Source: Terriglobales bacterium
Lineage (GTDB): Bacteria > Acidobacteriota > Terriglobia > Terriglobales > Acidobacteriaceae
Direction: 5' to 3'
Length of the DNA: 42,749 nucleotides
NCBI GenBank assembly: GCA_035454605.1
Contig: DATIGQ010000061.1
Coordinates: forward strand, 1-42,749
This document shows, in pieces, positions 14,926 to 42,136 of the stretch (its first letter is position 1; each line of letters starts with the position of its first letter). The notes below the pieces were generated by a model that did not search any database, was not told the DNA's origin, and saw nothing but the letters and a program-made list of their open reading frames with translations. The position numbers and the translations under genes were made by a program.

Positions 14926-15018
14926 TTCGCATCCGACGCGCTGGTTCCGTGGCGCTCATCACCAGCTTCATGAAGGATCAAACCACCAACGATTCTCACC
15001 CCTGACCGGAGACTACGC

Positions 15019-17096: not shown

Positions 17097-17228
17097 GGAT
17101 GCTCTCCTTGGGAGCGCCCCTAGCATAATCTCGCCGCTCGTTACCGCAAAGCCCGCGCCGCTTCCACTTTTTGCGATAATGAATAGGTTTGGCTTCCGGC
17201 GGCGCGCGGTTTTGGGTGCTAGACTTTG

Positions 17229-17239
17229 GAAACGGTTTC
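17229..17239. promoter_or_regulatory. Palindrome GAAAC-G-GTTTC upstream of aceE
   Basis: A perfect 5+1+5 palindrome lies 34 bases before the aceE start codon, just after a TAGACT that could serve as a -10. It is a candidate operator for control of the pyruvate dehydrogenase operon; the regulator is unknown. Confidence 0.35.
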
Positions 17240-17272
17240 TTTCTGCGGCTCGGATTCTTGGGGTGAGCGACG

Positions 17273-19945: not shown

Positions 19946-19962
19946 AGGAAGGAACCTTTTCG

Positions 19963-22803: not shown

Positions 22804-22841
22804 TTGCATGCCGCCTTTCCCATTCGGCAACACGGCGGTGT

Positions 22842-22847
22842 TAGAAT
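22842..22847 (+). promoter_or_regulatory. Likely -10 box (TAGAAT) of the Crp/Fnr gene
   Basis: TAGAAT predicts transcription from about 22854, which excludes the ATG at 22808 and supports the GTG at 22865 (GAGG five bases upstream) or the one at 22859. Confidence 0.45.
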
Positions 22848-22864
22848 CGCATTGCGAGGTGGTC

Positions 22865-23587
22865 GTGGCGCGCGCCCCATTCGGCCTGGAAATCGCGGAC
22901 AACTGCCTGAACTGCTCCCTTCGTTCAGACACCTTCTTCTGCAGCCTGCCCAAGGACGCACTGCAGAACTTCCAGACCATTGCCTCACCGGCAGCCTTTC
23001 CGTCCGACGCCGTGCTCTTCGTCGAGGGTCAGCAGCCGCGCGGCATCTACGTCCTCTGTTCGGGCAAGGTGAAGCTGTCTATGGGTTCCGCCGAAGGCAA
23101 AGTGCTGATCCTGCGCATCGCTGAAGCCGGCGAAGTGCTGGGCATCAGCGCGACCGTTTCCGGCCGTCCCTACGACTTGACGGCAGAAACACTGGAGCCG
23201 ACGCAGGCCAACTTCGTGCGGCGCGACGACTTCCTGCGCTTCCTGCAGAAACACTCCACCGCTTGCTTCCGCGCCGCGCAGCAGCTGAGCGACAAATACG
23301 ATGTGGCCTGCCGCGAAATCCGTTCGCTCGGTCTGTCTCATTCCGCAGCAGAGAAGCTGGCTATGTTCCTGTTGCAGCTGGCCGCCCGCGACGTCGCCCG
23401 CGGTGGCAAGGGCAACCGCATCCGCGTGACCCTCACCCACGAGGAAATCGCGCAGATGATCGGCACCTCGCGCGAAACCGTCACCCGCCTGCTCACCGAG
23501 CTCCGCAGGAAGCAGTTCATCGGCTGGAAGGGTTCCATCCTCGAGATCCGCAACAAGACTGCGCTCCAGGCCCTGGTGGGTTCCTAG
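22865..23587 (+). CDS. Crp/Fnr-family transcriptional regulator with N-terminal Cys cluster
   Basis: About 240 residues. An N-terminal cysteine group C-x2-C-x8-C (Cys14, 17, 26, starting NCLNC) precedes the cyclic-nucleotide-type beta-barrel (~30-125). A dimer helix and a winged helix-turn-helix (~193-212) follow. The layout recalls FNR, whose N-terminal cysteines hold an oxygen-sensitive 4Fe-4S cluster; Cys65, 134 or 149 could be a fourth ligand. The recognition helix reads GTSRETVTRLL: the R-E-x3-R triad is that of E. coli CRP (TGTGA half-sites), not FNR. Matching GTGA-N6-TCAC palindromes lie upstream of several genes to the right. The start is uncertain (22808, 22859 or 22865). Confidence 0.88.
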   Translation: MARAPFGLEIADNCLNCSLRSDTFFCSLPKDALQNFQTIASPAAFPSDAVLFVEGQQPRGIYVLCSGKVKLSMGSAEGKVLILRIAEAGEVLGISATVSGRPYDLTAETLEPTQANFVRRDDFLRFLQKHSTACFRAAQQLSDKYDVACREIRSLGLSHSAAEKLAMFLLQLAARDVARGGKGNRIRVTLTHEEIAQMIGTSRETVTRLLTELRRKQFIGWKGSILEIRNKTALQALVGS

Positions 23588-23609
23588 CTTTTCTCTGTCA
23601 CTTGCATTC

Positions 23610-23623
23610 GTGACCGTGGTCAC
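23610..23623. promoter_or_regulatory. CRP-type palindrome GTGACCGTGGTCAC
   Basis: GTGA-N6-TCAC centred at 23616.5, in the gap between the two Crp-like genes. A weak CAAGAT at 23647-23652 lies about 30 bases from the centre, near class II spacing. It would activate the HTH-less paralogue, with transcription starting nearly at its ATG. Confidence 0.55.
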
Positions 23624-23660
23624 AGTCTTGGACTGTCGTTTGCCTCCAAGATGCGCTCCA

Positions 23661-24167
23661 ATGCCGGCCCCGTCCAAGAGCGCGCGCCAACCCTGCTCAA
23701 CCGTCGGATGCGATTTGTGTCCGGAGCAGGACTTCCACGATGCCTTTCACGAAGACTGGGCGAAGTTCGAGCGGCGCTTCGCCGAACGAGCCTATGCCGA
23801 GGGGGAACTGCTGTTCCGCGAGGGCCGCAACGCGCGCGGCATTTATGTCCTGCGCGCGGGTGAGGCGGAATTGGTCGTGCACCCATCGGGTGGCAAGCGC
23901 ATCGTGGTTTGCAAGGCCGGACCGGGCACCCTGCTGGGCCTGAGCGCCGCCATCAGTGGCGCTGCGGCCGAACTCAGCGCGGAACTGACCCGGCCGAGCC
24001 GTGCCCGCTACATTCCGCGCCCCCAGTTCCTGCGCTTCCTGAAGCAGCACACCGCCGCCTGGCTGCCCATCCTCCACCGGCTGAGCCACGAAGTGGAGCA
24101 GGCGCACCAACGCGTGCATGCCATCCGCGAAAGCCAGCCGCGCCGGCGCCGCGCCTCTGCCGACTGA
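23661..24167 (+). CDS. Crp-like sensor domain protein lacking a DNA-binding domain
   Basis: A 168-residue protein with the same N-terminal design as its upstream neighbour: a cysteine group (Cys12, 17, 20, including GCDLC), a cNMP-type barrel with GRNARGIYVLRAGEAEL (neighbour: QQPRGIYVLCSGKVKL), and a dimer helix. It ends with a basic tail (RRRR) exactly where the helix-turn-helix should begin. The stop is followed within 7 bases by the convergent stress gene, so no HTH remnant exists. It may heterodimerise with the full regulator and act as a modulator, or be a decayed duplicate. ATG 23661 is preferred because the longer GTG start at 23610 would lie inside an operator. Confidence 0.75.
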   Translation: MPAPSKSARQPCSTVGCDLCPEQDFHDAFHEDWAKFERRFAERAYAEGELLFREGRNARGIYVLRAGEAELVVHPSGGKRIVVCKAGPGTLLGLSAAISGAAAELSAELTRPSRARYIPRPQFLRFLKQHTAAWLPILHRLSHEVEQAHQRVHAIRESQPRRRRASAD

Positions 24168-26332: not shown

Positions 26333-26884
26333 GTGAGCATCAAGGACGATCCACCAACCTCGCTTGGTTTCTGGCCCTCGTGGGCGCATCACATCGGCGA
26401 TCTGGTTTTCGGCGCCAACGACGGCATTGTGACCACCTTCGCCGTGGTCAGCGGCGTCACCGGGGCGGCGCTGAACCCTGCCATCGCCGTGGTGCTCGGC
26501 TTCGCCAACCTGCTCGCCGACGGCTTCTCCATGGCCGCCGGCGCCTACCTGGGACAGCGTTCCGAGCAGGACTACCGCGTGAGCGTGGACGGCCACATCC
26601 ACGAAGGCCGCATCCACGCGGTGGGGCACGGCGCCGCCATCTTTGTAGCTTTTCTGGGCGCCGGCTGCGTGCCCCTTCTGCCTTTGCTGATCACTCGCGA
26701 GCACGCCTTCGCCATCTCCTGTGCGGCCACGGCGGTAACGCTGTTCATCGTCGGCAGCCTGCGCACCGTGATCACCCGCGGACGCTGGCTGGCCAACGGC
26801 CTGGAGATGTTGCTGGTGGGATCGGCCGCCGCCGCCGTTTCCTACGCCGTTGGACATCTGCTGGGAAGTATGGCAAGAGGATGA
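26333..26884 (+). CDS. Short VIT1/CCC1-family Fe/Mn transporter-like protein
   Basis: A 183-residue membrane protein. The family hallmark [20 protein letters not shown] occurs in the first helix, then [23 protein letters not shown], and three further helices to a short tail. Plant and yeast members (VIT1/CCC1) move Fe2+ or Mn2+ out of the cytosol. The cytosolic Glu-rich metal-binding insert between helices 2 and 3 is shortened here to about 15-20 residues, making the protein smaller than usual. GTG at 26333 has GGAGG five bases upstream. Export of ferrous iron would fit an iron-redox setting but is inference. Confidence 0.8.
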
Positions 26885-26913: not shown

Positions 26914-26945
26914 CGCTGCGCATCCTCCCGCCGGGAGCCAGCCCG

Positions 26946-29687
26946 ATGAAGCCTGCGCCCGCACCGCTTTCCGATCCCGCGTATGACGTGCTGCGTGCCG
27001 AGCACCAGCCGCTGGACGCCTTCTTCGCGCCCCGCTCGGTAGCGGTGATTGGCGCGACCGAGCGCCCCGGCAGCGTGGGCCGCAGCATCCTCTGGAACCT
27101 GCTCAGCAGCCCCTTCGGCGGCACGGTATTTCCCGTGAATCCGGCGCGCCCAAGTGTGCTCGGCATCAAGGCCTATCCCGCCGTCGGGGCGGTGCCGGAG
27201 AAAGTGGACCTGGCCGTGGTGGTGACGCCCGCCGCGACCGTACCCGCTGTCATCGGCGATTGCGTAGACGCAGGCGTGCGCGCCGCCATCATCATCTCCG
27301 CCGGCTTCAAGGAAGTGGGTGAGCAGGGCGCGGAACTGGAACGCCGCGTACTGGACCAAGCCCGGCGTGGGCGCTTGCGCATCATCGGTCCCAACTGCCT
27401 CGGCCTGATGAGCCCCTTCACCGGACTGAACGCCACCTTCGCGCACGACATGGCGCGCCCCGGCAAAGTGGCCTTCGTCAGCCAGAGCGGTGCGCTATGC
27501 ACCGCCATCCTCGACTGGAGCCTGAAAGAGATGGTGGGCTTCAGCGCTTTCGTCTCCGTGGGCTCGATGCTGGATGTGGGCTGGGGCGACCTCATTTACT
27601 ACCTCGGCGACGATACCCGCACCGAGAGCATCGTGCTCTACATGGAATCCATCGGGGATGCGGGCGCCTTCCTCTCCGCTGCGCGCGAAGTCGCGCTCTC
27701 CAAGCCCATCATCGTCATCAAGGCGGGACGCACGGAACAGGCGGCGCGTGCCGCCGCTTCCCACACCGGCGCGCTCACCGGCAGCGACGAAGTTCTGGAC
27801 GCTGCCTTCCGCCGCTCTGGCGTGTTGCGCGTGCGCAATATTGCCGACCTTTTCTACATGGCGGAAGTGCTCTCCAAGCAGCCGCGTCCTCGCGGGCCGC
27901 GCCTGGCCATCGTGTCGAACGCCGGCGGTCCGGCGGTGCTGGCCACCGACGCCCTCATTGCCGGTGGCGGAGAGCTGGCGCCTCTCGCGCCCGAAACCCT
28001 CAAGGCGATGGACGAATTCCTGCCGCCGCACTGGAGCCACAACAATCCCATCGACATCCTGGGCGATGCCGACGCGCAGCGCTACGCGCGTGCGCTCGAG
28101 GTCGCTTCCCGTGATCCCAACACCGACGGCATGCTGGTAGTGATGGCTCCGCAGGCCATGACCGATCCCACCGGCGTGGCCGAACTCCTGAAGCCGTTGG
28201 CCTCTTCCACCGGCAAGCCCGTCCTGGCCAGTTGGATGGGCGGCGCTGAGGTTTCGGGCGGTGAAGCCATCCTCAACCGTTCCGGCATCCCCACCTTTCC
28301 GTATCCGGACACAGCGGCGCGCGCCTTCAATTACATGTGGCGCTACAGCTATAACCTGCGCGGGCTGTACGAAACGCCGGTGCTGCGCGCCGAGTCGGGC
28401 TCGGAACCCGACCGCGCTCGTGCCGCGGAGATGGTTGCGGCCGCGCGCCGCGCCGGGCGCACGCTGCTGACCGAGTTCGAGTCCAAGCAGGTCCTGGCCG
28501 CCTACGGTATTCCTACGGTCGAAACGCGCGTGGCACGTTCGCCGCAAGAAGCGCGGGAGCTGGCCGAATCACTGGGATATCCCGTCGTGGTCAAGCTGCA
28601 CTCAGAGACCGTTACGCACAAGACGGACGTGGACGGAGTCAAGCTCAACCTGGGCGACGGCGACGCCGTCGAGCGCGCCTGGCGCGAGATCGAGTCTGCG
28701 GTACGCAAGAAGGCGGGCGAAGGACATTTCCTGGGCGTTACCGTGCAGCCCATGGTACGCACCGACGGCTACGAGCTGATCCTGGGCTCCAGCCTGGATC
28801 CGCAGTTCGGTCCGGTCCTGCTGTTCGGCGCCGGAGGTCAACTGGTGGAAGTGTTCCGCGACCGCGCTCTCGCTCTTCCGCCCCTCAACACCACGCTCGC
28901 GCTGCGCATGATGGAGCAAACCAAGATCTTCGCCGCGCTCAAGGGAGTCCGCGGGCGTGCCGCGGTGGACCTCGATGCCCTCGAGCAGTTGCTGGTGCGC
29001 TTCGGGCAGTTGGTCGTCGAGCAGGCGGCCATCTGCGAGATTGACATCAACCCGCTGCTGGCCTCGCCCGAGCGCCTGCTGGCTCTGGACGCGCGCGTCG
29101 TGGTGCATCCCCGCGAAGTAAGCGATGAGCGCCTGCCGCGGCCTGCCATCCGTCCCTACCCGTCGCAGTATGTGGCACCGTGGCGGATGGGCGACGGCAC
29201 GGAAATCGTCATTCGCCCCATCCGCCCGGAGGATGAGCCCTTGATGGTCTGGTTCCACCAGACGCTCTCCGAACGCAGCGTCTACCTGCGCTACTTCCAG
29301 CAATTGCAACTGGCGCAGAGGGTCTCGCACGAACGCCTGACCCGCATCTGCTTCGTGGATTACGACCGCGAGATGGCGCTGGTAGCGGAAAAACAGGACG
29401 GTCACAACGGCCAGCCGGAAATCATCGCCGTGGGCCGCCTCAGCAAACTTCATCTCGCCGAGGAAGGCGAGGTTGCGTTCCTGGTCAGCGACCAGTACCA
29501 GCACCACGGTGTGGGCACCGAACTGCTGCAGCGCCTCATCCAGGTGGGCCGGGACGAAAAGTTGCGCCGCATCCTGGCCTACATGCTGCCCGAGAACCGC
29601 GCCATGCAGCGCGTCTGCGAGAAGCTCGGCTTCCGCTTGCGGCCTGTGCCCGACGAACCCCTCATCGTGGGCGAACTCGACCTCTGA
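26946..29687 (+). CDS. NDP-forming acyl-CoA synthetase fused to GNAT acetyltransferase (PatZ-like)
   Basis: A 913-residue multidomain cytosolic protein. It has a CoA-binding Rossmann domain (~20-145, [17 protein letters not shown]), a succinyl-CoA-ligase-like domain (~160-470), an ATP-grasp domain (~490-715) and a C-terminal GNAT domain (~745-913) with the acetyl-CoA loop QHHGVG. It has the architecture of E. coli PatZ/YfiQ, which acetylates acetyl-CoA synthetase and other proteins. The ASHTGALTG motif retains the His (~273) that is phosphorylated in active ADP-forming acetyl-CoA synthetases, so it might also make ATP from acyl-CoA. The upstream ATG frame in the previous gene is rejected. Confidence 0.88.
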
Positions 29688-29787: not shown

Positions 29788-30459
29788 GTGATTTCGCAGT
29801 GTGCCAATCCGGGTTGTTCCGCTCCCTTCCGCTATCTGCGCGAAGGGAAGCTGTTTCAGCTCTACACCGATCCCGAGCCTGGAACCGGAGAACGCACCGA
29901 GACCTCCCGCCGCATTGAGTACTACTGGTTGTGCGGCCGCTGTGCCGCCACCATCACTCTGTTGTTCGAACACAAGGATGGCGCCGTCAGGGTGCACTTG
30001 AAGCACCACGGTGAGAGTGGAGGATTTATGCCGACGAACGAAGTCCAGACCATCAGGGCCAGGGAGATTCCGCTGAACAAGGACGACCGCGACCTGCTCG
30101 AACTGCTCAAGTTCGAGCTGGACTTCCTGGAAGCGGGCGGCTACGGCCGCTCCGTGCACACGCCGCAAGTGCCCACCCGTCCCTTCCAGGACTCCATCAC
30201 CTGCATCAACTACGGCGACCCGCAGCGCTCGCGTCCCTGCGAAGAGTGCCTGCTCATGCAGTTCGTGCCGGAGTCGCGCCAGCACGAGAATGTCCCCTGC
30301 CATCACATCCCCCTGACCGAAAAAGGGGAGACCGTGGAAACGCTGGAGGCGTGCGGTAACCAGGCCGTGTTGGAAGAGGCCATGATCCACTGGCTGCGCG
30401 CCGCCATTCGCCGCCTGGAGCAGGATCGCGCCCTGGCCCAGGCCGCCAAGGGTGTGTGA
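29788..30459 (+). CDS. Conserved-looking cysteine-rich protein of unknown function
   Basis: A 223-residue soluble protein I do not recognise. Two cysteine pairs at the N-terminus (CANPGC near residues 5-10 and CGRC near 50) look like a four-Cys zinc site around a short beta region. A second group (CEEC, then a later PCHH) sits near 150-175, so two metal sites are possible. The C-terminus is a charged helix (HWLRAAIRRLEQDR). No signal peptide or membrane helix is seen. GTG at 29788 has GGGAGG ahead, after a CRP-type site. The receiver gene follows 7 bases later, so the pair may be one signalling unit. Confidence 0.7.
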   Translation: MISQCANPGCSAPFRYLREGKLFQLYTDPEPGTGERTETSRRIEYYWLCGRCAATITLLFEHKDGAVRVHLKHHGESGGFMPTNEVQTIRAREIPLNKDDRDLLELLKFELDFLEAGGYGRSVHTPQVPTRPFQDSITCINYGDPQRSRPCEECLLMQFVPESRQHENVPCHHIPLTEKGETVETLEACGNQAVLEEAMIHWLRAAIRRLEQDRALAQAAKGV

Positions 30460-31236: not shown

Positions 31237-32193
31237 ATGCGCCCTTCGCAGGCCGTAAGAATCACACTTCTCAGCAGCATTCTCCTCTGTCTTCTGGCTT
31301 GGCCGAATTCTCCTCCCGCATCGCCCGCGCTGATTCCGGTTGCGTTGGCGGCCGAGGTTCCGCATCCGCCGCAAGGCAAGGCGGAGGATTACGTCGGGGC
31401 AGAAACCTGCCAGACCTGCCACGAGGACAAGTTCAAGCACTTTGAGACCACCGCCCACTTCCGCACCACGCTCGACAAAAAGAAGGGGCCGGAGTACCAG
31501 GGCTGCGAAGCCTGCCACGGCCCGGGTCGTGAGCACGTTGAAGGAGGCGGCGACGTCTCGAAGATTTTCAGCTTCAAGGGCAAGTCGGCGGAAGAAATCT
31601 CCAAGCGCTGTCTGGATTGCCACCAGTATGGCGAGGAGCACAGCAACTTCGCGCGCTCCGTTCACCTGGAGAACAATGTGAGCTGCATCGACTGCCACTC
31701 GCCGCATTCCGCCAAGGCCAAGGTGGCGCTGCTCAAGGTCGACCAGCCCAACCTCTGCTACACCTGCCACCTGGATGTGAAGCCCGAGTTCTCCAAACCC
31801 TTCCACCACCGCGTGAACGAGAAGCTGGTGAAGTGTACGGATTGTCATAATCAGCACGGTGGGTTCCTGACCCGTCAGCTTCGTTCCACCACGGCCCAGG
31901 ACTGGGTCTGCTTCAAGTGCCACACGGAAAAAGCCGGTCCCTTCGTGTTCGAGCACGCTCCCATCAAGACTGAAGGCTGCCTCGCCTGCCACACGCCACA
32001 CGGTTCCACTAACCCTCGGCTGCTCAAGCGCAGCCAGGTGAATCTGCTCTGTTTGGAGTGCCACACCTTTACCGTGGACTCGGATATTCCTGTTACCCCG
32101 AGTTTCCACAACCAGACTGCGAAGTACCAGGCATGCACCCTGTGCCATCAGGCCATTCACGGCTCCAACTTTAGTGAAGTCTTCTTCAAGTAG
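31237..32193 (+). CDS. Periplasmic decahaem cytochrome c, MtrA/DmsE/PioA-like
   Basis: A 318-residue exported cytochrome. A signal peptide (VRITLLSSILLCLLAW) is followed by ten CXXCH motifs: CQTCH, CEACH, CLDCH, CIDCH, CYTCH, CTDCH, CFKCH, CLACH, CLECH, CTLCH. Haem number and size match MtrA (about 330 residues), the cytochrome that threads an outer-membrane barrel to carry electrons between periplasm and cell surface. Additional His in the CHxxH style (CHSPH, CHTPH, CHQAIH) supply distal ligands. The ATG at 31237 with GGAAGGGGG ahead is chosen over an earlier GTG. The barrel gene follows 7 bases later. Confidence 0.9.
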   Translation: MRPSQAVRITLLSSILLCLLAWPNSPPASPALIPVALAAEVPHPPQGKAEDYVGAETCQTCHEDKFKHFETTAHFRTTLDKKKGPEYQGCEACHGPGREHVEGGGDVSKIFSFKGKSAEEISKRCLDCHQYGEEHSNFARSVHLENNVSCIDCHSPHSAKAKVALLKVDQPNLCYTCHLDVKPEFSKPFHHRVNEKLVKCTDCHNQHGGFLTRQLRSTTAQDWVCFKCHTEKAGPFVFEHAPIKTEGCLACHTPHGSTNPRLLKRSQVNLLCLECHTFTVDSDIPVTPSFHNQTAKYQACTLCHQAIHGSNFSEVFFK

Positions 32194-32200
32194 GTGACCA

Positions 32201-34810
32201 ATGAAGACCATGTGCCATGATTTCGAGAATCCGATTCCAGGTGCTCGCGGTCTTCTGGCCGGGGGCGCGAGGCTGTTCCTCGCCGTGTGTCTGGTCAGTG
32301 CCGCCGGTCTGGCGGTTGCTCAGGACCAGCCGGACGAAGGCATCAATTCTGGCAATTACAACATCCACCAATCCATCGAGTTCGGCGGGCGCATCACCGA
32401 CTACTCCGGGAACGGGTCGTTGTGGAACACCTTCGTCAACCTGTACGACGGTCCCCGTCTGCTCGAGCACACTCTCCAGATGCGCTCCCTGAATCATCAG
32501 GGCACGCTGTTCGACGACCTCTACGTCTCCAGCTTCGGCTACGGCGGCGACCCCAACAACGTCACCCGCCTTAAGGTGACCAAGAACAAGTGGTATAACT
32601 TCACCGCTAGCTTCCGCAGGGATCGCAATTTCTGGGACTACAACCTGCTGGCCAACCCGCTGAATCCCGACACCTCGGTGCCGGCCGTGCCCATCGACTT
32701 CAGCCCCCACCGCTTCGAAGTGGTGCGCCGGATCAGCGACTTCGATCTCATCCTGCGCCCGCAAGACCGCTTCCGCATCCGCCTGGGATATGGCCAGAAC
32801 GTGAGTGAAGGGCCCTCCTTCTCCAGTTTCCATGAGGGCACCGACGTGCTCGTGTTCCAGGACTGGAGGCAGATTCTGCATTCCTACCGCATCGGATTCG
32901 ACTTCAAGTTTCTGCCCCGCACCAACATCAGCTACGACCAGTTCTTTAACTATCAGAAGGGAGACAACAGCTACACCGACGGGGTCTTGCGCGATCCGAG
33001 ATTGCCGTACTTCGCGCAGTGCCCCGGTGCAGGCTGCATCATCCGGCTTCCCGATGGGACCACCACGACGGTGGATCAGGTGGACCTGGGTTTGATTCTT
33101 GATACGGCTGCCAACTCGCCCTGCGCCACTCCCATCAACGACTTCACCACCACGCCGCAGACAGCGAACCCCACCTGCAACGGATATCTGCTCTACAACC
33201 GCTACGCCAAGGTGCGGTCGAACTTTCCCACCGAGCAGCTGAGTTTCCAGAGCAGCTACTTCAAGAACGTGGATTTTTCCGGCCGCTTCGTCTATAGCGG
33301 TGGCGACACCGACGTGCCCATCTACACCGAGCAGTATGCGGGACTGGTCACTCGCACGCGCCAGCGCTCGTTCACCTTCGGTCCCAGCCACGAACTGGGC
33401 GACATGATCGGCTTCCCCGATCCCATCGGTGCACACCGCATCTCGGTGAGTGCGGATTTCGGTGTTACCATCCGCTTCACCGACAAGTTCCGCATCGTGG
33501 ATAACTTCCGCTGGTCCGACTTCCGCATCCCGGGCATTGCTGCGCTGGAGGAGAATTCGCTGTTCGGCACCAACATGACCGTAGCGCCGAACGTGTTCAG
33601 CACGGCCACCTGTCCGGCCCCGTTTACGGCGGCGACCTGCCCCTCACACAGCAGCAGCTCCCCGGCGGACATCGCGCACGAGGGCTTCGTGAGCTTCCTG
33701 GGTCAGGACACCAAGATCAACACCATTCAGCTCGAGTACGATTTCACCCGCCGGGTAGGGGCGCGCCTGGGTTACCGCTTCCGCGATCGGGTCATCCGTC
33801 ATGGCCATTTCGTGTTTGAGGACTTGACGTTTTTCCCGGCCACCGCGCAGCGCGGTGCTTGCAACGCCACTAATCTCGCCAATGGCAGTGCGGTACTCGA
33901 TCCCGTGACCGGCATTTGCCAGGCGGAGGTGGAAGAAGGCTCGGGCATCTTCGAAGGCGAGCCGCAGCTCGAATTCAACGAGCACTCCGGATTGTTCGGG
34001 CTCTGGGCACGCCCCAACGATCAGTGGCGTTTTAGCTTTGACGTGGAAATGATGTCGGCCGACAACGTGTTCACCCGCATCATGCCGCGTAACCGGCAGC
34101 AGTACAAGTTCCGCACCACCTACAAGCCCCAGGATTGGATCTCTCTCGGCTTCAACTTCAACATCCTGGAACAGCGCAACAACGTTCCCGACGTTCAGAA
34201 CCGGCAGCACTATCGCTACTACGGCTTCTTCGCCGCCTTTATCAAGGACAACTGGGGACTGGACCTCGGCTACAACTTCACCGACATCTTCTCCACCACC
34301 AACATCTGCTATGTCTATCCGGTTGCTCTGGGTACTGCCAATAGTCTTTCCCTCTCGCCCGAGTGCGCCATTGCCGCCGGCGTTACCTCGCCTCCCAGCC
34401 CGACCGGCAACTACTTCTTTGACGACGTTTCCACCTACAACAACGACATCCACTATGGCTCGATTAACTTCTTCTTCAAGCCGGTACCGCGCGTGAGGGC
34501 CGGAGTCGGCTACACGCTCACCAGCAGCGCCGGCTCGACGCTCATCCTCAACCCTGTTTCGCCGCAGGGGCCCCTGGGCATCAACTACCATCTACCGTCG
34601 GCCGACCTGTCGGTGGAGCTCACCAAGCGTTGGATGGCGAAAGGCGTCTGGAACTATTACGGCTACAACGAGAAGTCCGATGCCGGCTTCACGCTGCCAG
34701 GCGGATGCTTCGGCTTGACAGCGCCGAGTATCAACACCCCGAACGGCATCTGCACCGGGCGCGACGTGCGCGGCAACGTGGTTACGCTCTCGTTGCGCTA
34801 TGCGTTCTGA
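32201..34810 (+). CDS. Outer-membrane beta-barrel of MtrB/PioB type
   Basis: An 869-residue protein with an N-terminal signal (ARLFLAVCLVSAAGLAVAQ; n-region unusually long, ~24 residues). Long alternating strands rich in aromatic residues and Asn/Asp turns run to the end, closing with LSLRYAF, the aromatic C-terminal signal for barrel insertion. Seven bases after a decahaem cytochrome gene, this is the layout of mtrAB/pioAB/mtoAB, where the barrel sheathes the cytochrome. It is larger than MtrB and lacks an early CXXC. About a dozen Cys are scattered in probable loops (e.g. CPGAGC, TCPAPFTAATC), unusual for a barrel and perhaps disulfide-linked. No surface MtrC-like cytochrome follows. Confidence 0.85.
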   Translation: MKTMCHDFENPIPGARGLLAGGARLFLAVCLVSAAGLAVAQDQPDEGINSGNYNIHQSIEFGGRITDYSGNGSLWNTFVNLYDGPRLLEHTLQMRSLNHQGTLFDDLYVSSFGYGGDPNNVTRLKVTKNKWYNFTASFRRDRNFWDYNLLANPLNPDTSVPAVPIDFSPHRFEVVRRISDFDLILRPQDRFRIRLGYGQNVSEGPSFSSFHEGTDVLVFQDWRQILHSYRIGFDFKFLPRTNISYDQFFNYQKGDNSYTDGVLRDPRLPYFAQCPGAGCIIRLPDGTTTTVDQVDLGLILDTAANSPCATPINDFTTTPQTANPTCNGYLLYNRYAKVRSNFPTEQLSFQSSYFKNVDFSGRFVYSGGDTDVPIYTEQYAGLVTRTRQRSFTFGPSHELGDMIGFPDPIGAHRISVSADFGVTIRFTDKFRIVDNFRWSDFRIPGIAALEENSLFGTNMTVAPNVFSTATCPAPFTAATCPSHSSSSPADIAHEGFVSFLGQDTKINTIQLEYDFTRRVGARLGYRFRDRVIRHGHFVFEDLTFFPATAQRGACNATNLANGSAVLDPVTGICQAEVEEGSGIFEGEPQLEFNEHSGLFGLWARPNDQWRFSFDVEMMSADNVFTRIMPRNRQQYKFRTTYKPQDWISLGFNFNILEQRNNVPDVQNRQHYRYYGFFAAFIKDNWGLDLGYNFTDIFSTTNICYVYPVALGTANSLSLSPECAIAAGVTSPPSPTGNYFFDDVSTYNNDIHYGSINFFFKPVPRVRAGVGYTLTSSAGSTLILNPVSPQGPLGINYHLPSADLSVELTKRWMAKGVWNYYGYNEKSDAGFTLPGGCFGLTAPSINTPNGICTGRDVRGNVVTLSLRYAF

Positions 34811-34823
34811 AACGGTTGAAATC

Positions 34824-34871
34824 AAAGGCCCGCGGGTGTGTGACGTTGCTCACAGCGGGCCTTTGGCTTTT
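34824..34871 (+). terminator. Terminator hairpin overlapping a CRP-type operator
   Basis: AAAGGCCCGC (34824-34833) and GCGGGCCTTT (34855-34864) form a perfect 10-bp stem followed by GGCTTTT, an intrinsic terminator after the barrel gene. The loop region holds the CRP palindrome, whose half-sites can themselves pair and extend the structure. Confidence 0.65.
34839..34854. promoter_or_regulatory. CRP-consensus site TGTGACGTTGCTCACA
   Basis: A perfect TGTGA-N6-TCACA palindrome centred at 34846.5 inside the terminator hairpin. GAACAT at 34876-34881 starts 29.5 bases downstream, so a class II promoter could begin near 34888 for the small cytochrome gene at 34908. Confidence 0.65.
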
Positions 34872-34907: not shown

Positions 34908-35225
34908 ATGCGGAAGATGGCAGTCATTCTGGCGCTGACAGTCGCGGTATTGATGTTGGCTCCGGCGGCTCTTGCGGACGACGCCGCAGCTCTGTACAAG
35001 TCCAAGTGTGCGAGTTGTCACGGTGCTGACGGCAAGGCCAGCGCCATCGGCAAGAAGATGGGCGCCAAGGACCTGCAAGACCCGGAGCTCAAAAAGGCCA
35101 CCGAGGCCGAGTGGATTGACATCACCACCAAGGGCAAGGCGAAGATGCCCGCGTACGACAAGAAGCTGACGGCCGACCAGATCAAGGCGTTGGTCGCCTA
35201 CATGAAAGAGCTGTCGAAAAAGTAA
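34908..35225 (+). CDS. Small periplasmic monohaem cytochrome c (copy 1)
   Basis: A 105-residue class I cytochrome c. A signal peptide (MAVILALTVAVLMLAPAALA) is followed by DDAAALYKSKCASCHGADG with one CXXCH, a lysine-rich middle, and KMPAY carrying the likely axial Met. The C-terminal helix is LTADQIKALVAYMKEL. It is a soluble electron shuttle, likely between inner-membrane quinol-oxidising complexes and the outer-membrane conduit. AGGAGG precedes the ATG at 34908. It closely resembles the next gene, indicating tandem duplication. Confidence 0.93.
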   Translation: MRKMAVILALTVAVLMLAPAALADDAAALYKSKCASCHGADGKASAIGKKMGAKDLQDPELKKATEAEWIDITTKGKAKMPAYDKKLTADQIKALVAYMKELSKK

Positions 35226-35250
35226 CCTTGCGGTACGATAACAATACAGC

Positions 35251-35280
35251 CCCCGTCCCCGCGTGGGACGGGGTTGATTT
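35251..35280 (+). terminator. Hairpin between the two small cytochrome genes
   Basis: CCCCGTCCC (35251-35259) and GGGACGGGG (35265-35273) form a perfect 9-bp stem with a 5-base loop, followed by TTGATTT. It may terminate or attenuate transcription between the first cytochrome and the downstream bc-type operon, or protect the upstream mRNA. Confidence 0.55.
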
Positions 35281-35293
35281 GAGGAGGATCTTG

Positions 35294-35611
35294 ATGAGCC
35301 GGGCCATGATGGTTGTCGTTCTGACGGTATCGCTGCTGTTCCTCACCGCCGGAGCTGCGGCGGATGATGCGGCCGCGCTGTACAAGTCCAAGTGCGTGAG
35401 CTGCCACGCCGCCGATGGCAGCGGCTCGCCCATTGGCAAGAAAATGGGGGCGCGTGATTTTCACGATCCCGAGATCGTCAAGCTCACGGACCAGCAGCTT
35501 ACCGACGCGATCAGCAAGGGCAAGAACAAGATGCCCGCCTACAACGGCAAGCTGACCGCCGACCAGATCAAGGGATTGGTCGCCCATATTCGCGACCTCC
35601 AGAAGAAGTAA
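35294..35611 (+). CDS. Small periplasmic monohaem cytochrome c (copy 2)
   Basis: A 105-residue paralogue of the upstream cytochrome. It has a signal peptide, then DDAAALYKSKCVSCHAADG, GKKMGARDFHDPE, KMPAYNGKLTADQIKGLV. It shares identical blocks with copy 1 around the haem motif, axial Met and last helix, yet the middle helix differs. ATG 35294 has GAGGAGG ahead; the frame upstream passes through the hairpin and is rejected. It lies 32 bases before the Rieske gene and probably is the first gene of the bc-type operon, as periplasmic acceptor or shuttle. Confidence 0.92.
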   Translation: MSRAMMVVVLTVSLLFLTAGAAADDAAALYKSKCVSCHAADGSGSPIGKKMGARDFHDPEIVKLTDQQLTDAISKGKNKMPAYNGKLTADQIKGLVAHIRDLQKK

Positions 35612-35643: not shown

Positions 35644-36114
35644 ATGAACCCTCCGGGGGCCGACATCTCGCAGCCGCCACTGCCGCTCCGGCGGCGACTG
35701 GTGGAACTGCTGCTGGGCGGTGGGTTGTTGGCCTCCGCGGCTTCCTTTCTTTATCCCGTTTTGCGCTACATCGTCCCGCCGCCTTCGGCCGATCTCGGTG
35801 CCGACACCGTGGTGGCGGGCAAGGTGGGCGATCTGAAGCCCAACTCCGGCATGATCTTCCGTTTTGGCAGCCGGCCTGGGATCCTGATCTTCACCGCCGA
35901 CCGCGAATACCGCGCTCTCTCCGCCACCTGCACCCACCTGGACTGCACCGTGCAGTACCGCGACGACCTGCACAACATCTGGTGCGCCTGCCACAACGGA
36001 ATGTACGACCTGAGCGGCCGCAACGTTTCCGGACCACCGCCTCGGCCGCTGGAAGCCTACGAGGTTCACGTGCAGGGCGATGAGATCATCGTCAGCCGGC
36101 GCCAGAAGGCTTGA
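35644..36114 (+). CDS. Rieske 2Fe-2S protein of a cytochrome bc/b6f-type complex
   Basis: A 156-residue protein. An N-terminal anchor (residues ~15-45) includes an RRR pair before the helix ([15 protein letters not shown]), consistent with Tat export. The Rieske domain follows, with CTHLDC and CACHNG providing two Cys and two His for the 2Fe-2S cluster. The remaining Cys in the two motifs can form the disulfide typical of bc/b6f Rieske proteins. It takes one electron from quinol at the outer site and hands it to a c-type haem. The cytochrome b gene starts 1 base after its stop. Confidence 0.93.
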
Positions 36115-36115
36115 C

Positions 36116-37261
36116 ATGAAGAATCTCGTCACCCGTGCATACGAATGGCTGGATGAGCGGCTGGACCTCCAAGACCTCATGGCGCCCTTGCGCCACAAGA
36201 CCGTCCCGGTCCACTACTACTCCTATTGGTACTACTTGGGTGGGATCACTCTCTTCCTTTTTCTGGTGCAGGTTTTCACCGGCATCCTGTTGTTGCTGTA
36301 CTACCGACCCAGCGCCAACGAAGCCTTCGAAAGCGTGCAGTTCATCATGACCCGGGTGCAGTTCGGATGGCTCATCCGCTCCATCCACTCTTGGGCCGCC
36401 AACCTGATGATCTTTTTTGCCTTCGCTCACATGTTCAGCGTGCTGTTCCTGCGCTCTTACCGCAAGCCGCGTGAACTTACTTGGGTGAGCGGCATGGTGC
36501 TGCTGGTCTTGGCGATGGGCTTTGGCTTCAGCGGATACCTGTTGCCCTGGAACACTCTGGCGTTCTTCGCCACCAAGGTCGGCACCGACATCGTCCGCCA
36601 GGTTCCTGTGGTAGGCCACTGGCTCATGGTCTTCCTGCGCGGCGGCGAGGATGTCACCGGTGCCACCCTCAGCCGCTTCTTCGGCCTCCACGTGGCCGTG
36701 CTTCCCGGCATCACCACGCTGCTGTTGGCGATTCACCTTGCGCTCATTCAGCGTCAGGGAATCAGCGTGCCCGGCGGCATGGAGGGGGCCATGCACGCCC
36801 TGAAGTATCTGCGGAAGCATGACCCGGCAGCGGCGGAGCTGTGGTTGAAGCAGGCAGGAGCGCAGGCGGAACGCCGCGAGATGCCTTTCTTCCCCAACTT
36901 CTTCCTGCGGGAGCTGATGGCCTGGTACGTGGCCTTGGGAGTATTGGGCGCGCTGGCTGCGTTGGCTCCCTGGGAGCTCGGCACCAAGGCCGACGCCTTC
37001 GCCCCTGCGCCCGCGGGCATTCGCCCAGAGTGGTACTTCCTGTGGATGTTCCAGACTCTCAAGCTCATTCCCGCCAAGCTCGGTCCGCTCGATGGCGAGA
37101 TGGTCGGCGTGCTGGCCTTCAGCGTGGCTGGAGGCCTCTGGCTCCTGCTCCCGTTTTTCGACCGTGGTGAGGGCCGTGGCTCCCGCTGGATTCTGGGCGC
37201 CGGCATCTTTGCCTTGGTCTACATGACCGCCATGAGCGTGTACGGCTACCTGGCTAGCTGA
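36116..37261 (+). CDS. Cytochrome b (b6-type core fused to subunit IV-like part)
   Basis: A 381-residue membrane protein, the quinol-oxidising core of a bc complex. Haem-ligand histidines are His91/His105 and His192/His207. The second pair is separated by 14 residues, the b6-type spacing (13 in mitochondrial-type cytochrome b). A loop rich in charged residues (~235-270) leads to a C-terminal part with the Qo-site PEWY motif and three helices, corresponding to b6f subunit IV but on the same chain. ATG 36116 follows the Rieske stop by one base; its own TGA overlaps the next ATG. No cytochrome c1 or f gene is present; a 9-haem cytochrome takes that place. Confidence 0.93.
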
Positions 37262-38538
37262 TGCGACGCACCGACCAACTCGCTATCTTTGCGCTTCTGC
37301 TGTCTGTCTTTTGCCTGCCGGGCGGCGCTCCCCCGGCTCGGGCCCAGCAGGCCGACACCTGTCTCGATTGTCACGCTGAGTTCCCGGAACCCATCGGCGT
37401 CGCGCGGGAGAAGTTCGACGTAGATATCCATGCTCAGAAGGGCCTCACCTGCGCCAGTTGCCACGGCGGCGATCCCTCCAAGACCACCCCCGAGGAAGCC
37501 ATGAGCCCGGCCGCCGGCTTCCGCGGACACGTGGACCGCAAGCAGGTGCCGGAGCTGTGCGCGCGCTGCCACTCCGACGGCGCCTACATGCGCCAGTACA
37601 ACCCGTCCTTGCGCACCGACCAGCTCAGCCAGTACCGCACCAGCGTGCACGGCAAGCTGCTGGCCAAGGGAGACGACAAGGTCGCGGTCTGCACCGATTG
37701 CCACAGCGTCCACGGCATCCGCCCTGGATCGGACCCGCGCTCCAGCATCCACCCGCTCAACATCGCGGAGACCTGCTCCCGCTGCCATGCCGACGCCGCT
37801 TACATGCAGGCCTACAAGATTCCCACCGACCAGTACGCTTCCTACAAGGAGAGCGTGCACCACCGGGCGCTGGTGGAGCGCGGTGACCTGAGCGCGCCCA
37901 CCTGCACCACTTGCCACGGCAACCACGGCGCTGCGCCGCCGGGTGTAGCTTCGGTGGAGTTCGTATGTTCAAACTGCCACGTCTTCCAGGCCCAGCTCTT
38001 CGATTCCAGCCCGCATAAGTCCGCCTTTGCGGCTGCCGGAGTCCCGGCTTGCATCACCTGCCACAGCAATCACCGGGTCGTGGCGCCGGGTGATGCCATG
38101 CTGGGCGCGGGGCCGCAATCGGCCTGCACGCAGTGTCACGTCGAAGGCGATGGCGGGTATACGGCGGCCGTCACCTTTCAGCGCCGCCTGGGCGATTTGC
38201 AGAATGCCATCCTGCGCTCCGATGAGGTTCTGGAACGCGCCGAACGGTTCGGCATGGAAGTGAGCGAAGCCAGGCTGGAACAGGGGCAGGCGCGTGACGC
38301 CCTCACCAAAGCGCGGGTCACCATTCATAGCTTTCAACTCGCGCGCGTGGAAGAAGACCTCAGCGCCGGTCTCAAGATTGCGGAGAAGACCCACCAAGAC
38401 GGCCTGCGCGCTCTCCAGGAGCACGACTTCCGTCGCAAGGGCCTTGGGGTCTCTCTTCTAGCCATCCTGGTCGTGCTGGTCGCCTTGCGCCTCTACATTC
38501 GCCAGATCGAGTCCGGCCCGGGGAAGGGATCTGCCTGA
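37261..38538 (+). CDS. Membrane-anchored 9-haem cytochrome c
   Basis: A 425-residue protein. A signal peptide ([17 protein letters not shown]) precedes nine CXXCH motifs: CLDCH, CASCH, CARCH, CTDCH, CSRCH, CTTCH, CSNCH, CITCH, CTQCH (residues ~37-300). A helical stretch (~305-395) with long amphipathic helices and a C-terminal membrane helix (LGVSLLAILVVLVALRLYI) follow. Recurrent SVHG/SVHH segments ahead of haem motifs are typical of octahaem/NrfB-like multihaem modules. Position after Rieske and cytochrome b, with 1-base overlaps on both sides, suggests it is the electron-accepting subunit that replaces cytochrome c1/f. Confidence 0.88.
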   Translation: MRRTDQLAIFALLLSVFCLPGGAPPARAQQADTCLDCHAEFPEPIGVAREKFDVDIHAQKGLTCASCHGGDPSKTTPEEAMSPAAGFRGHVDRKQVPELCARCHSDGAYMRQYNPSLRTDQLSQYRTSVHGKLLAKGDDKVAVCTDCHSVHGIRPGSDPRSSIHPLNIAETCSRCHADAAYMQAYKIPTDQYASYKESVHHRALVERGDLSAPTCTTCHGNHGAAPPGVASVEFVCSNCHVFQAQLFDSSPHKSAFAAAGVPACITCHSNHRVVAPGDAMLGAGPQSACTQCHVEGDGGYTAAVTFQRRLGDLQNAILRSDEVLERAERFGMEVSEARLEQGQARDALTKARVTIHSFQLARVEEDLSAGLKIAEKTHQDGLRALQEHDFRRKGLGVSLLAILVVLVALRLYIRQIESGPGKGSA

Positions 38539-40538
38539 TGTTCCGCGGCCCGGCAGCCCTGAGTCTCCTGCTGCCGACCGCGATTGTGCTGGCGCTCACG
38601 GTGCCCGCTCCCGCCCAGACGTCCAAGGGGCTCGACTGCCTGGAATGCCATTCGGACGCGAGCATGGAAAAGCACGTGGACGCCAAGGTCTTCCAGGAAT
38701 CCGTCCACGGCATCCTCTCCTGCGCCGACTGCCACACGGACATCACAGCGTTTCCCCACGAGCCTGCGCCTGCCAAGGTCGACTGTGGCACCTGCCACGC
38801 CGACGCCAGGCAGGCCTTCGAGACCGGCATCCACGCCCGGGCCGCGAAGACCGGCAACGGCAAGACGCCCACCTGCACGGCCTGTCACGGCGACCCGCAC
38901 GCCATCAAGCCCTCGACCAATCCACTATCGCCCACTGCGCACGCCAACGTCCCGCAGACCTGTGGCAAGTGCCACAGCGATCGTTTCGTCGTGGAAAGCG
39001 GCGGCATCAGCACCCGCCCGTTCTTCTCCTATCAGGAGAGCGTCCACGGACGCGCCATCGCCGCCGGCAGGGAGAAGGCCGCGGTGTGCACGGATTGCCA
39101 CCGCGCTCACGACATCCTCACCGCCGCCGACCCCAAGTCTCCCATTTTCAAGTTCAACGTCCCGCAGACCTGCGGGCAGTGCCACCAGGATGTCTCCCAC
39201 GAGTTCATGGCCAGCATTCATGGCCGGGCCATCCAGCGCGGCAATTCGCAGGCGCCGGTGTGCACTGACTGCCACGGCATCCACCTCATCAAGGCGCACA
39301 TCGACCCCACTTCCTCGGTCGCATCCCAGGCTCTGGCGCGGACTACGTGCGCCAAGTGCCATGAGGGCATGCGCCTCTCCGAGGAGTTTGGCGTTCCCGG
39401 CCACCGCGCCACCAGCTATCTCGACAGCTACCACGGCCTGGCTTCCCAGCTCGGTTCCGGCGTGGTGGCCAACTGCGCCAGTTGCCACGGGGTGCACAAC
39501 ATCCTGCCTTCTTCCGACCCGCGCTCTACCATCTCGAAAGAGAATCTGGTCAAGACCTGCGGCCAGTGCCACCCCGGCGCCAGTCAGAACTTCGCGGCCG
39601 GCAAGGTGCATCTGGATGTCCCCGTCTCGCGCGACATGGGCAGCCTGGGCACGCTCTGGGTGCGGCGCTTTTACATCGTGCTCATCGCCTTTACCTTGGG
39701 CGGGATGATTGTGCACAACGCCGTTCTCTGGCGCCGCCAGGCGCTGGTCCGGCGTGACCGGCGCCCGCGCCCCATCGTGCGCATGGACCGCAATCAGCGT
39801 ATCCAGCACTGGCTGCTGCTTACCAGCTTCTTTGTCCTGGCCGCCACCGGCTTCGCGCTGAAGTATCCGGACTCCTGGCTGGCTTGGCTGCTGGGCTCGA
39901 ATGAGACGGTTCGCCGCCTCGGCCATCGCGTCGCCGCGGTGGTGATGTTGCTGCTCGGCGCCTACCACGTCGGCTACATGCTGTTGACCCGCCAGGGCCG
40001 TCAGGGTTTGCGGGACTTCGCCCCGCGCGGCAAGGACGTCGCAGACCTCATCGCCAACCTGCGCTACCACCTGGGCCGTTCTTCCGCGAAGCCCCGCTTT
40101 GGCCGCTTCGGATACGCGGAGAAAGCTGAGTATCTGGCCGTGGTTTGGGGCACGGTTCTCATGGGCCTCACCGGCCTGATGATGTGGTTCGAGGTCGAGG
40201 TCGTCCGCCTGGTGCCGCGCTGGTCGGTGGACATCGCCACCGCCATCCACTTCTATGAAGCCATCCTGGCCGTCTCCGCGATTTTCATTTGGCACTTCTA
40301 CCAGGTGATCTTCGATCCCAGTGTCTATCCCATCAATTGGGCATTTTGGGACGGTCGCGTCTCCGAGGACCACTACCGCGAGCATCATGCGCAGGCCTAC
40401 GAGCAGATGCTGGAGCAGCCCGGAACCGATCCCGTCGCGGCGCCTGTGGAACCGTCGCAAGTCCCGCCGGCTGCGAAGCCCGAGGAGAAGCCAGCCGCTC
40501 CGCCTTCTGACGACAAGCCGGCACCGGACTCGTCTTGA
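38538..40538 (+). CDS. 11-haem cytochrome c fused to b-type membrane domain (CbcL-like)
   Basis: A 666-residue fusion. After a signal peptide there are eleven CXXCH motifs: CLECH, CADCH, CGTCH, CTACH, CGKCH, CTDCH, CGQCH, CTDCH, CAKCH, CASCH, CGQCH (to ~355). About five membrane helices follow (~370-610) with His in IVHNAV, IQHWLL, LGHRVA, AYHVGY, AIHFYE and IWHFYQ, as in HydC/FdnI di-haem cytochrome b subunits. A Pro/Ala-rich tail ends it. The same fusion is the hallmark of Geobacter CbcL, a menaquinol dehydrogenase needed for electron export at low potential, though CbcL has fewer c haems. It would oxidise quinol and release electrons to the periplasm. It overlaps the previous gene by one base. 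Confidence 0.87.
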   Translation: MFRGPAALSLLLPTAIVLALTVPAPAQTSKGLDCLECHSDASMEKHVDAKVFQESVHGILSCADCHTDITAFPHEPAPAKVDCGTCHADARQAFETGIHARAAKTGNGKTPTCTACHGDPHAIKPSTNPLSPTAHANVPQTCGKCHSDRFVVESGGISTRPFFSYQESVHGRAIAAGREKAAVCTDCHRAHDILTAADPKSPIFKFNVPQTCGQCHQDVSHEFMASIHGRAIQRGNSQAPVCTDCHGIHLIKAHIDPTSSVASQALARTTCAKCHEGMRLSEEFGVPGHRATSYLDSYHGLASQLGSGVVANCASCHGVHNILPSSDPRSTISKENLVKTCGQCHPGASQNFAAGKVHLDVPVSRDMGSLGTLWVRRFYIVLIAFTLGGMIVHNAVLWRRQALVRRDRRPRPIVRMDRNQRIQHWLLLTSFFVLAATGFALKYPDSWLAWLLGSNETVRRLGHRVAAVVMLLLGAYHVGYMLLTRQGRQGLRDFAPRGKDVADLIANLRYHLGRSSAKPRFGRFGYAEKAEYLAVVWGTVLMGLTGLMMWFEVEVVRLVPRWSVDIATAIHFYEAILAVSAIFIWHFYQVIFDPSVYPINWAFWDGRVSEDHYREHHAQAYEQMLEQPGTDPVAAPVEPSQVPPAAKPEEKPAAPPSDDKPAPDSS

Positions 40539-40575: not shown

Positions 40576-40597
40576 AGTGGCTCGTCGAGATCATCGT

Positions 40598-42136
40598 ATG
40601 CCTGAAGAAACCAAACCGACCTCCGCTGAACCTGCTGTTCCCCCGCGACCGCCGGGGTTGTTCCGCAACATCCTGAGCTGGATTGGCGCGGGGATTGCCC
40701 TCATCAGCCTGACCAACATCCTGTTTGTCCTGATGCTGGAGCTGTTCGGCGTCACGACCAATCCTTACGTCGGCATCCTCGCCTACATGGTGTTGCCCGC
40801 TTTCCTCGGTCTGGGCCTGGTGCTCATCCCCATCGGCATGCTGTTGGAGCGCCGCCGGCGGCGCCGGCATGCCGAAGCCGCGATTCCGGCTTATCCCCGC
40901 ATCGATCTCAACCTCACACACCATCGCCACGCCTTTGCCTTCTTCCTGGTTTCCATGCTGGTGTTCTTGTCGCTGAGCGCGTTGGGCAGCTATCGCGCCT
41001 ACGAGTACACCGAGACCACCGAATTCTGCGGGCAGCTCTGCCACTCGGTGATGCATCCCGAGTTCATCGCCTACCAGGCTTCGCCGCATGCCCGCGTGCG
41101 TTGCGTGGACTGCCACGTGGGGCCCGGCGCCACCTTCTACGTCAAGTCCAAGCTCTCCGGCGCCTATCAGATCTACGCCGTGACGTTTCACAAGTACCCC
41201 AAGCCCATTCCCACCCCGGTAGCCAATCTTCGTCCTGCGCAGGAGACCTGCGAGCAGTGTCACTGGCCGGAGCGCTTTTACGGCGCCCAGCTCAAGGTGA
41301 TTACCCACTACGGCTCGGACGAGAGCAACACCCCGCGCCAGATCCGCCTGCTCATCAAGACCGGCGGCGGCAGCCCGACCACCGGTCTCACCGCCGGGAT
41401 CCACTGGCACATGAACATCGCCAACGAGGTCACCTACATCGCCACCGACCCGCAGCGCCAGCAGATTCCGTGGGTGCGCATCAAGGACCAGCAGGGACGC
41501 GTCACCGAGTATCTGACGGAGGGCTCCGACCTCACGCCCGAGCAGATCAAAGCCGCTCCCAAGCGCCGCATGGACTGCATGGACTGCCACAACCGGCCGT
41601 CGCACATCTACTACCCGCCCGAGCGCTCCGTGGACGATTACCTGTTCGCGGGCAAGATCGACGCCACGCTCCCCTTTATCCGCCAGCAGGCGATCGAAGT
41701 GCTCAGCCAGAAGTACGACACCAGCGAGGGCGCGCGTGAAGCCATCGCCACCACCCTGGACCGCTTCTACCTCACCAAGTACCCGGACCTCTACAAGACG
41801 CGCCGGCCCGCCGTGCACCAGGCCATCGCCGGAGTGCAGCAGATCTACGCTTCCACCATCTTTCCGGAGATGAAAGTGGACTGGCGCGTCCACCCCGATA
41901 ACATCGGCCACTTCTTCTATCCCGGCTGTTTCCGCTGCCACGACGGCCAGCACAAGAGCGTTGAGGGCAACGTGATCCGCAAGGACTGCGACATCTGCCA
42001 CGTCGTCCTGGGGCAGGAGGAAGGCGGCGCGCCACTCACCACCGTCACCGGTAACCAGTTCCAGCACCCGGTGGACCTCGGTGATATCACCGCCGTCAAC
42101 TGCGTCGACTGCCACACCGGCGGCGGCGGGCCGTAG
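40598..42136 (+). CDS. 7-haem NapC/NirT-family quinol dehydrogenase (ImcH-like)
   Basis: A 512-residue inner-membrane protein. Three N-terminal membrane helices (~22-48, 53-78, 105-125) are followed by a periplasmic part with seven haem sites. The first is CGQLCH, a C-x3-CH form followed by SVMHPEF with a possible Met ligand. Then come CVDCH, CEQCH, CMDCH, CFRCH, CDICH and CVDCH. Helix count, haem count and length match Geobacter ImcH, which passes quinol electrons to periplasmic cytochromes at higher acceptor potentials. An in-frame GTG exists at 40577; ATG 40598 is preferred since the -10-like box overlaps the longer start. It follows the CbcL-like gene by 59 bases. Confidence 0.88.
   Translation: MPEETKPTSAEPAVPPRPPGLFRNILSWIGAGIALISLTNILFVLMLELFGVTTNPYVGILAYMVLPAFLGLGLVLIPIGMLLERRRRRRHAEAAIPAYPRIDLNLTHHRHAFAFFLVSMLVFLSLSALGSYRAYEYTETTEFCGQLCHSVMHPEFIAYQASPHARVRCVDCHVGPGATFYVKSKLSGAYQIYAVTFHKYPKPIPTPVANLRPAQETCEQCHWPERFYGAQLKVITHYGSDESNTPRQIRLLIKTGGGSPTTGLTAGIHWHMNIANEVTYIATDPQRQQIPWVRIKDQQGRVTEYLTEGSDLTPEQIKAAPKRRMDCMDCHNRPSHIYYPPERSVDDYLFAGKIDATLPFIRQQAIEVLSQKYDTSEGAREAIATTLDRFYLTKYPDLYKTRRPAVHQAIAGVQQIYASTIFPEMKVDWRVHPDNIGHFFYPGCFRCHDGQHKSVEGNVIRKDCDICHVVLGQEEGGAPLTTVTGNQFQHPVDLGDITAVNCVDCHTGGGGP

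Follow-up and report, generated by a model that had tools for sequence, protein, structure and literature searches.

Does the gene pair at positions 31237-34810 of contig DATIGQ010000061.1 (forward strand; Terriglobales bacterium, assembly GCA_035454605.1) carry electrons across the outer membrane, and if it does, which way do they flow? The pair consists of a multihaem cytochrome gene followed by a gene for a predicted outer-membrane barrel, and the whole stretch of 42,749 nucleotides in which it lies is called the window below. An earlier note on this DNA had taken the pair for an MtrAB/PioAB-like electron conduit. According to our analysis, an MtrAB-like outer-membrane conduit fed from the quinone pool is the best overall explanation of 31237-34810 and a very probable one; our confidence is higher still in the narrower statement that the pair is an electron conduit, and it is only moderate for an outward main direction of electron flow.

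Composition of the gene pair

The upstream gene (31237-32193, + strand) encodes a c-type cytochrome of 318 residues from the MtrA/DmsE family, predicted to be periplasmic and to carry ten haems, in which 10 CXXCH motifs were counted; shuffling of its residues yielded 0.10 motifs on average and at most 3 in 20,000 trials. The protein scored 269.9 bits on the TIGR03508 (DmsE/MtrA) model against a cut-off of 192.2, covering model positions 1-257 of 258, and its closest solved relative was the MtrA chain of the Shewanella Mtr complex (6r2q_A, E 1.5e-38). That chain is mislabelled 'Cystathionine beta-synthase' in the sequence library, which would misdirect automatic annotation. Across 42 acidobacterial homologues, the ten CXXCH motifs and nine non-motif histidines were invariant and a tenth histidine, H291, was nearly so; about nine of the conserved non-motif histidines aligned with histidines of 6r2q_A. 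With ten motifs and ten conserved or nearly conserved distal histidines, the sequence fits a predicted complement of ten bis-histidine haems.

The stop codon of the cytochrome gene ends at 32193 and the ATG of the barrel gene stands at 32201, leaving a gap of 7 bases. The barrel gene (32201-34810, + strand) encodes 869 residues with an N-terminal hydrophobic stretch (residues 22-40) and an aromatic C-terminal end, LSLRYAF. Open reading frames (ORFs), motif count and coordinates thus bear out the description given in the earlier note, namely a ten-CXXCH cytochrome followed after 7 bases by an 869-residue barrel, and the aromatic end that it had reported is also present.

Relationship of the barrel to MtrB

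AlphaFold2 modelled the barrel from 71 homologues with a predicted local distance difference test score (pLDDT) of 82.6 and a predicted template modelling score of 0.79, and manual reading of the predicted model gave 26 strands, with a short segment (388-395) assigned to a loop. Turns from even to odd strands had 2-9 residues, loops from odd to even strands had up to 67 residues (311 in total), and the loops were net acidic. This predicted layout, with its long surface loops, is that of published MtrB, which has 26 strands, tight periplasmic turns and an acidic outer face (PMC7198977). The top fold match in the PDB was MtrB itself (6r2q_B, Foldseek E 4.1e-15); VIA-align superposed the two with Z 25.1 and a root-mean-square deviation (rmsd) of 3.9 Å over 586/649 residues, and TonB receptors trailed with Z of at most 18.5 and about 6-7 Å over ~440 residues. 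When the window barrel family was compared by hhalign with a profile built from 13 acidobacterial PF11854-positive barrels, the match had a probability of 99.0 and an E value of 2.4e-18 over 625 columns; in the controls, TonB receptors reached E 3.2e-6 over 252 columns and reversed sequences 3%. The fold match and the full-length profile match together argue that the window barrel is a distant homologue of MtrB, in a predicted sister family outside the model-defined membership of MtrB/PioB, and on the modelled structure it is predicted to work like MtrB.

Some results weigh against this identification. Neither PF11854 nor TIGR03509 matched the barrel protein, and genome-wide searches with both models returned nothing. 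In a positive control, TIGR03509 did score above cut-off in six acidobacterial genomes other than this one, and therefore the failure of the barrel is not due to a dead model. PF11854 weakly matched 2 of 49 barrel relatives, one of which is a second barrel of the same genome (20.4 bits, cut-off 23). Scans of the barrel with Pfam, NCBIfam and PHROG gave only a weak tail match to the GSU2204 family and BBP2, and a PDB search with the barrel sequence profile found nothing relevant. On the side of the cytochrome, the AlphaFold2 model built without haem was of moderate quality (pLDDT 70.7) and resembled 6r2q_A weakly, at Z 7.6 and an rmsd of 4.5 over 162 residues, level with OcwA. The profile check proposed in the earlier note thus came out positive for the 318-residue protein against MtrA/DmsE and negative for the 869-residue protein against the MtrB/PioB models, and its suggestion of an MtrAB-like identity draws support from the cytochrome model match, the barrel fold and the profile-profile comparison.

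The barrel could instead be an ordinary porin or TonB-type receptor, with the cytochrome a free periplasmic carrier that is adjacent by chance. The missing MtrB/PioB model match agrees with such an explanation, and so does a weak TonB-type profile similarity across the last third of the barrel. However, MtrB is the top fold match by a wide margin, the profile match to recognised MtrB-type barrels runs over the full length, and the adjacency of decahaem and barrel genes is kept in nearly all of 110 related loci, so that we regard this explanation as highly improbable. A TonB-receptor identity of the barrel, which the earlier note had set against its own reading, was rejected: structural alignment ranks MtrB far higher, and the TonB profile control is much weaker.

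Cysteines in the barrel family are mostly even in number, and those of the window barrel are located in the long surface loops. Cys308 and Cys326 (window 33122-33178) were both present in 38 of 71 barrel proteins and one alone in 2. This co-occurrence, together with the even numbers, suggests disulphide-stapled loops.

Conservation of the pair and its distribution

A barrel homologue was found in 29 of 61 related genomes, and in each of the 30 loci inspected, a 9-10-haem cytochrome (one partial) was the ORF immediately before the barrel. Starting from the cytochrome, 80 loci were taken as the best of at least 517 relatives, acidobacterial by all signs; 78 of them had a homologous barrel, which lay directly downstream in nearly all. 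Since the upstream cytochrome was present in 30/30 loci and the barrel in 78/80, the pairing of cytochrome and barrel is not due to chance. That these 80 relatives appear to be acidobacterial, with two records titled otherwise, supports the Acidobacteriota origin that had been thought probable from the window. One locus (L096) stands in a record titled Bordetella parapertussis, yet it has an acidobacterial-type pair, and the public name looks wrong.

Among 299 genomes of the class, a profile of the window barrel was found in 194 (at E <= 1e-3, the profile having no curated cut-off), TIGR03508 was above cut-off in 191 and PF11854 in 30. A genome of the same genus (G001) has a PF11854-type barrel without the window type, and several genomes carry both types. 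In a cytochrome tree of 116 rows, 99 partners of the window barrel type fell on one side of a branch with support of 100/96, and MtrA and the PF11854-paired cytochromes fell on the opposite side. Part of the 99 had been fetched by cytochrome similarity, which favours such a split; the 30 barrel-fetched and 15 PF11854-fetched cytochromes separate likewise.

Downstream genes and direction of electron flow

Behind the pair, a strong RNA hairpin followed by a U-rich stretch (34822-34866, + strand) is a candidate terminator of the mtrAB-like genes. Its minimum free energy was -30.5 kcal/mol (z -3.67) and no shuffled sequence was equally stable; a terminator pattern scan did not return it. Next come, all on the + strand, a small monohaem cytochrome c that is a candidate periplasmic shuttle (34908-35225, PF13442 1.1e-16) and a second one (35228-35611, likely start near 35294, PF13442 2.8e-14), with a second hairpin between the two. 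With two hairpins, a single transcript should therefore not be assumed.

The following genes form candidate quinone modules, through which the pair could be linked to respiration. A Rieske iron-sulphur protein (35644-36114, PF00355 8.5e-11) is followed by a cytochrome b of the bc/b6f type (36116-37261, PF00033 1.5e-53, PF00032 1.1e-10), which scored 216 bits on the ExtP model against a cut-off of 290. A nine-haem cytochrome with 9 CXXCH motifs and a C-terminal membrane helix (37261-38538, hydrophobic stretch 395-413) is probably the third subunit of this Rieske/cytochrome b complex. The next protein (38538-40538) has 11 c-type CXXCH motifs (PF14522 1.7e-19) and then a cytochrome b561-type membrane domain (PF01292 4.9e-16, at 416-593); its score on a formate dehydrogenase gamma model, 60.7 bits, was under the cut-off of 115.85. 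The layout is that described for CbcL/MtrH/MtoC, an N-terminal multihaem part of 3-23 motifs with a HydC/FdnI-like b-type membrane part (PMC6295460). The last gene (40577-42136) encodes an ImcH-like seven-haem quinol dehydrogenase, with its first motif of the form CX3CH, helices at 36-54, 72-90 and 119-137, and a PF03264 (NapC/NirT) segment at 121-207; it agrees with the description of ImcH as a protein of three N-terminal helices, 6-10 haem motifs and a NapC/NirT-like segment from helix 3 (PMC6295460).

In the 80 related loci, counted with strict coverage rules that exclude mere CXXCH similarity to the decahaem protein, quinone modules adjoined the pair in 29, a small cytochrome c was near it in 37 and an ImcH-like gene of 6-8 haems (fewer in cut copies) was present in 25. 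One locus (L041) contains nearly the entire downstream set in a different order. The cultured Acidobacterium sp. S8 and Silvibacterium bohemicum S15 show a four-gene row of decahaem cytochrome, barrel, monohaem cytochrome c and six-haem ImcH-like protein.

No MtrC-like surface cytochrome was present in the window, as the earlier note had stated, and the same was true of the genome (98% complete), in which TIGR03507 (OmcA/MtrC) and PF22113 (MtrC/F domain) gave nothing over cut-off. Near the pair in the 80 loci, multihaem ORFs bearing a lipobox amounted to three pattern matches, none of them MtrC-sized. In the proposed mechanism, menaquinol would be oxidised by the ImcH-like protein, the CbcL-like protein or the multihaem-bc complex, and the electrons would pass from these modules to a monohaem cytochrome c, the nine-haem protein or both, and on to the ten-haem cytochrome. 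The latter would be threaded inside the 26-strand barrel, moving electrons between periplasm and cell surface, and would hand them to an outside acceptor, which may be Fe(III) in soluble or chelated form, a humic quinone or a partner that takes up electrons. Because no surface cytochrome of the MtrC type was found, it is probably the exposed last haem that reacts, either directly or with some partner. MtrAB of Shewanella still reduces soluble Fe(III) chelates without MtrC (PMC7198977).

The same conduit could also run inward, as in Fe(II) (or cathode or partner) oxidation of the PioAB/MtoAB type, in which case the monohaem cytochromes would hand electrons to haem-copper oxidases and, by an uphill path across the bc complex, to quinone. 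Small cytochromes c directly follow the pair, certain Fe(II) oxidisers have mtr clusters without MtrC (PMC4245776), and CbcL/MtoC homologues are present in Fe(II) oxidisers (PMC6295460). Three haem-copper oxidases were above cut-off in the genome, which would also suit an aerobic Fe(II) oxidiser; together with an MtrC-less layout like that of PioAB/MtoAB, they leave room for the inward direction. The only organisms from which ImcH homologues have been reported, however, are Fe(III) reducers (PMC6295460), and an ImcH-like gene lies downstream of the pair here and in the related clusters counted above. For this reason outward flow is favoured, and the inward version seems rather unlikely to us. 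The oxidases are not the only observation that counts against a quinone-fed, outward conduit: the hairpin at 34822-34866 parts the pair from the downstream genes, leaving co-transcription unassured, and the Rieske/cytochrome b/nine-haem set was near the pair in 7 of 80 loci, the full downstream set being found in few relatives. Direction, which the earlier note had rightly considered undecided by sequence, now leans outward on the neighbouring genes.

A second decahaem-barrel pair and upstream genes

The same genome contains a second decahaem-barrel pair on another contig (C203, locus L037), with the decahaem gene at 19184-19999 (-) and the barrel gene at 17045-19177 (-). Its cytochrome is cut by the contig end, and its barrel of 710 residues is the one that came just under the PF11854 cut-off. 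The pair adjoins molybdopterin oxidoreductase, 4Fe-4S and NrfD genes (11919-16871 (+)) and genes for proteins with multiple class-I haem domains, a layout that recalls DmsEF-AB. The window pair might likewise serve an extracellular oxidoreductase encoded elsewhere, as DmsEF does for DmsAB in Shewanella; its cytochrome falls within the DmsE subfamily model TIGR03508, and the second pair shows such a module in this very genome. However, no molybdopterin enzyme was seen around the pair in the window gene list, and its quinone and bc module neighbours better suit a general conduit. We consider service to a distant oxidoreductase improbable and retain the general, quinone-fed conduit as our explanation of the window pair.

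Upstream of the pair, 22808-24167 encodes a CRP/FNR-type regulator with a CXXC near its N terminus and a cyclic nucleotide-binding protein that has no DNA-binding domain. In 24 of the 80 related loci, relatives of the CRP type occurred within the flanks, in many cases at a distance of 1-2 kb from the pair. A gene for a VIT1-family (iron/manganese-type) transporter lies at 26333-26884, ~4.4 kb upstream of the conduit, and is followed by an acyl-CoA synthetase of the nucleoside diphosphate-forming type fused to a GNAT acetyltransferase domain (26940-29687). A 223-residue protein without a Pfam match is encoded at 29788-30459, and a relative of it (52% identical) stands just before the decahaem gene in locus L042.

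Significance

Soils and peat are rich in Acidobacteriota, whose role in iron and humic cycling is uncertain. In 2013, peat metagenomes led to the proposal of acidobacterial decahaem cytochromes that would probably serve iron reduction (PMC3669403). Holophaga was reported to have MtrB-type complexes (PMC7399161), and Acidobacteria to have PioA/PioB homologues, which may or may not include the window barrel clade (PMC10654088). Acidobacterial MtrAB is thus already known, and what appears to be new is the overlooked barrel clade, its breadth and the linked quinone modules. The open-access literature that was searched yielded no description of a barrel clade that escapes the two MtrB models, of its occurrence in some two thirds of the class, or of its linkage to ImcH, CbcL and bc modules.

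The wider proposition, to which we give about an even chance, is that Acidobacteriota have a large MtrC-less conduit branch of their own, with a barrel invisible to the MtrB models, shared by some two thirds of the class and wired to quinone modules of the ImcH, CbcL and bc types. If it is true, electron exchange at the surface would be widespread in a phylum that ranks among the most abundant in soil. Surveys relying on MtrB models would undercount such conduits, because PF11854 passed its cut-off in 30/299 genomes and the window barrel family was found in 194/299; FeGenie names TIGR03509 as having been the public mtrB model (PMC7005843). The compact four-gene version in the cultured S. bohemicum S15 and Acidobacterium sp. 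S8 makes the question testable.

Comparison with known systems

Close described systems from the phylum are the 'Group 5' MtrCAB clusters of Acidobacteriia (Bryobacterales and others), which were selected for having mtrC; in them mtrB is followed by a tetrahaem cytochrome, and no quinone oxidoreductase of the inner membrane lies close by (PMC8805035). The window system shares with them the phylum and the combination of decahaem cytochrome and barrel, but its cluster is without mtrC and contains genes of the inner-membrane quinone oxidoreductase type. PF11854-type pairs of the class (e.g. G001, G124 and G074) have the same gene order as the window pair, and their cytochromes fall across a fully supported branch from those of the window type.

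For the quinone modules, the likeness is to Geobacter. Haem counts, helix counts and domain layout in the window agree with published descriptions of ImcH, CbcL and the bc-type (Cbc/Ext) modules, and the likeness is judged from these descriptions. The characterised conduits of Geobacter are of the Pcc type and were described as unrelated to Mtr (PMC4245776).

By gene content, the window pair resembles PioAB of Rhodopseudomonas and MtoAB of Sideroxydans, in which a decahaem cytochrome and a barrel likewise occur without MtrC. It differs from them in showing no high-potential iron-sulphur protein of the PioC type and in being followed by ImcH-like, CbcL-like and multihaem-bc genes.

The core of Shewanella MtrCAB (PDB 6R2Q; PMC7198977) is the closest sequence match of the window cytochrome and the closest fold match of the window barrel, and both systems combine a ten-haem periplasmic cytochrome with a 26-strand barrel, which in the window is predicted. 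The two barrels have ~12% identity in the structural alignment, with the 869-residue window barrel below PF11854 and TIGR03509. Unlike the Shewanella system, that of the window has no MtrC found and has nearby quinone modules other than CymA. As a predicted conduit that is naturally MtrC-less and has large surface loops, it offers a contrast to the conduit of Shewanella.

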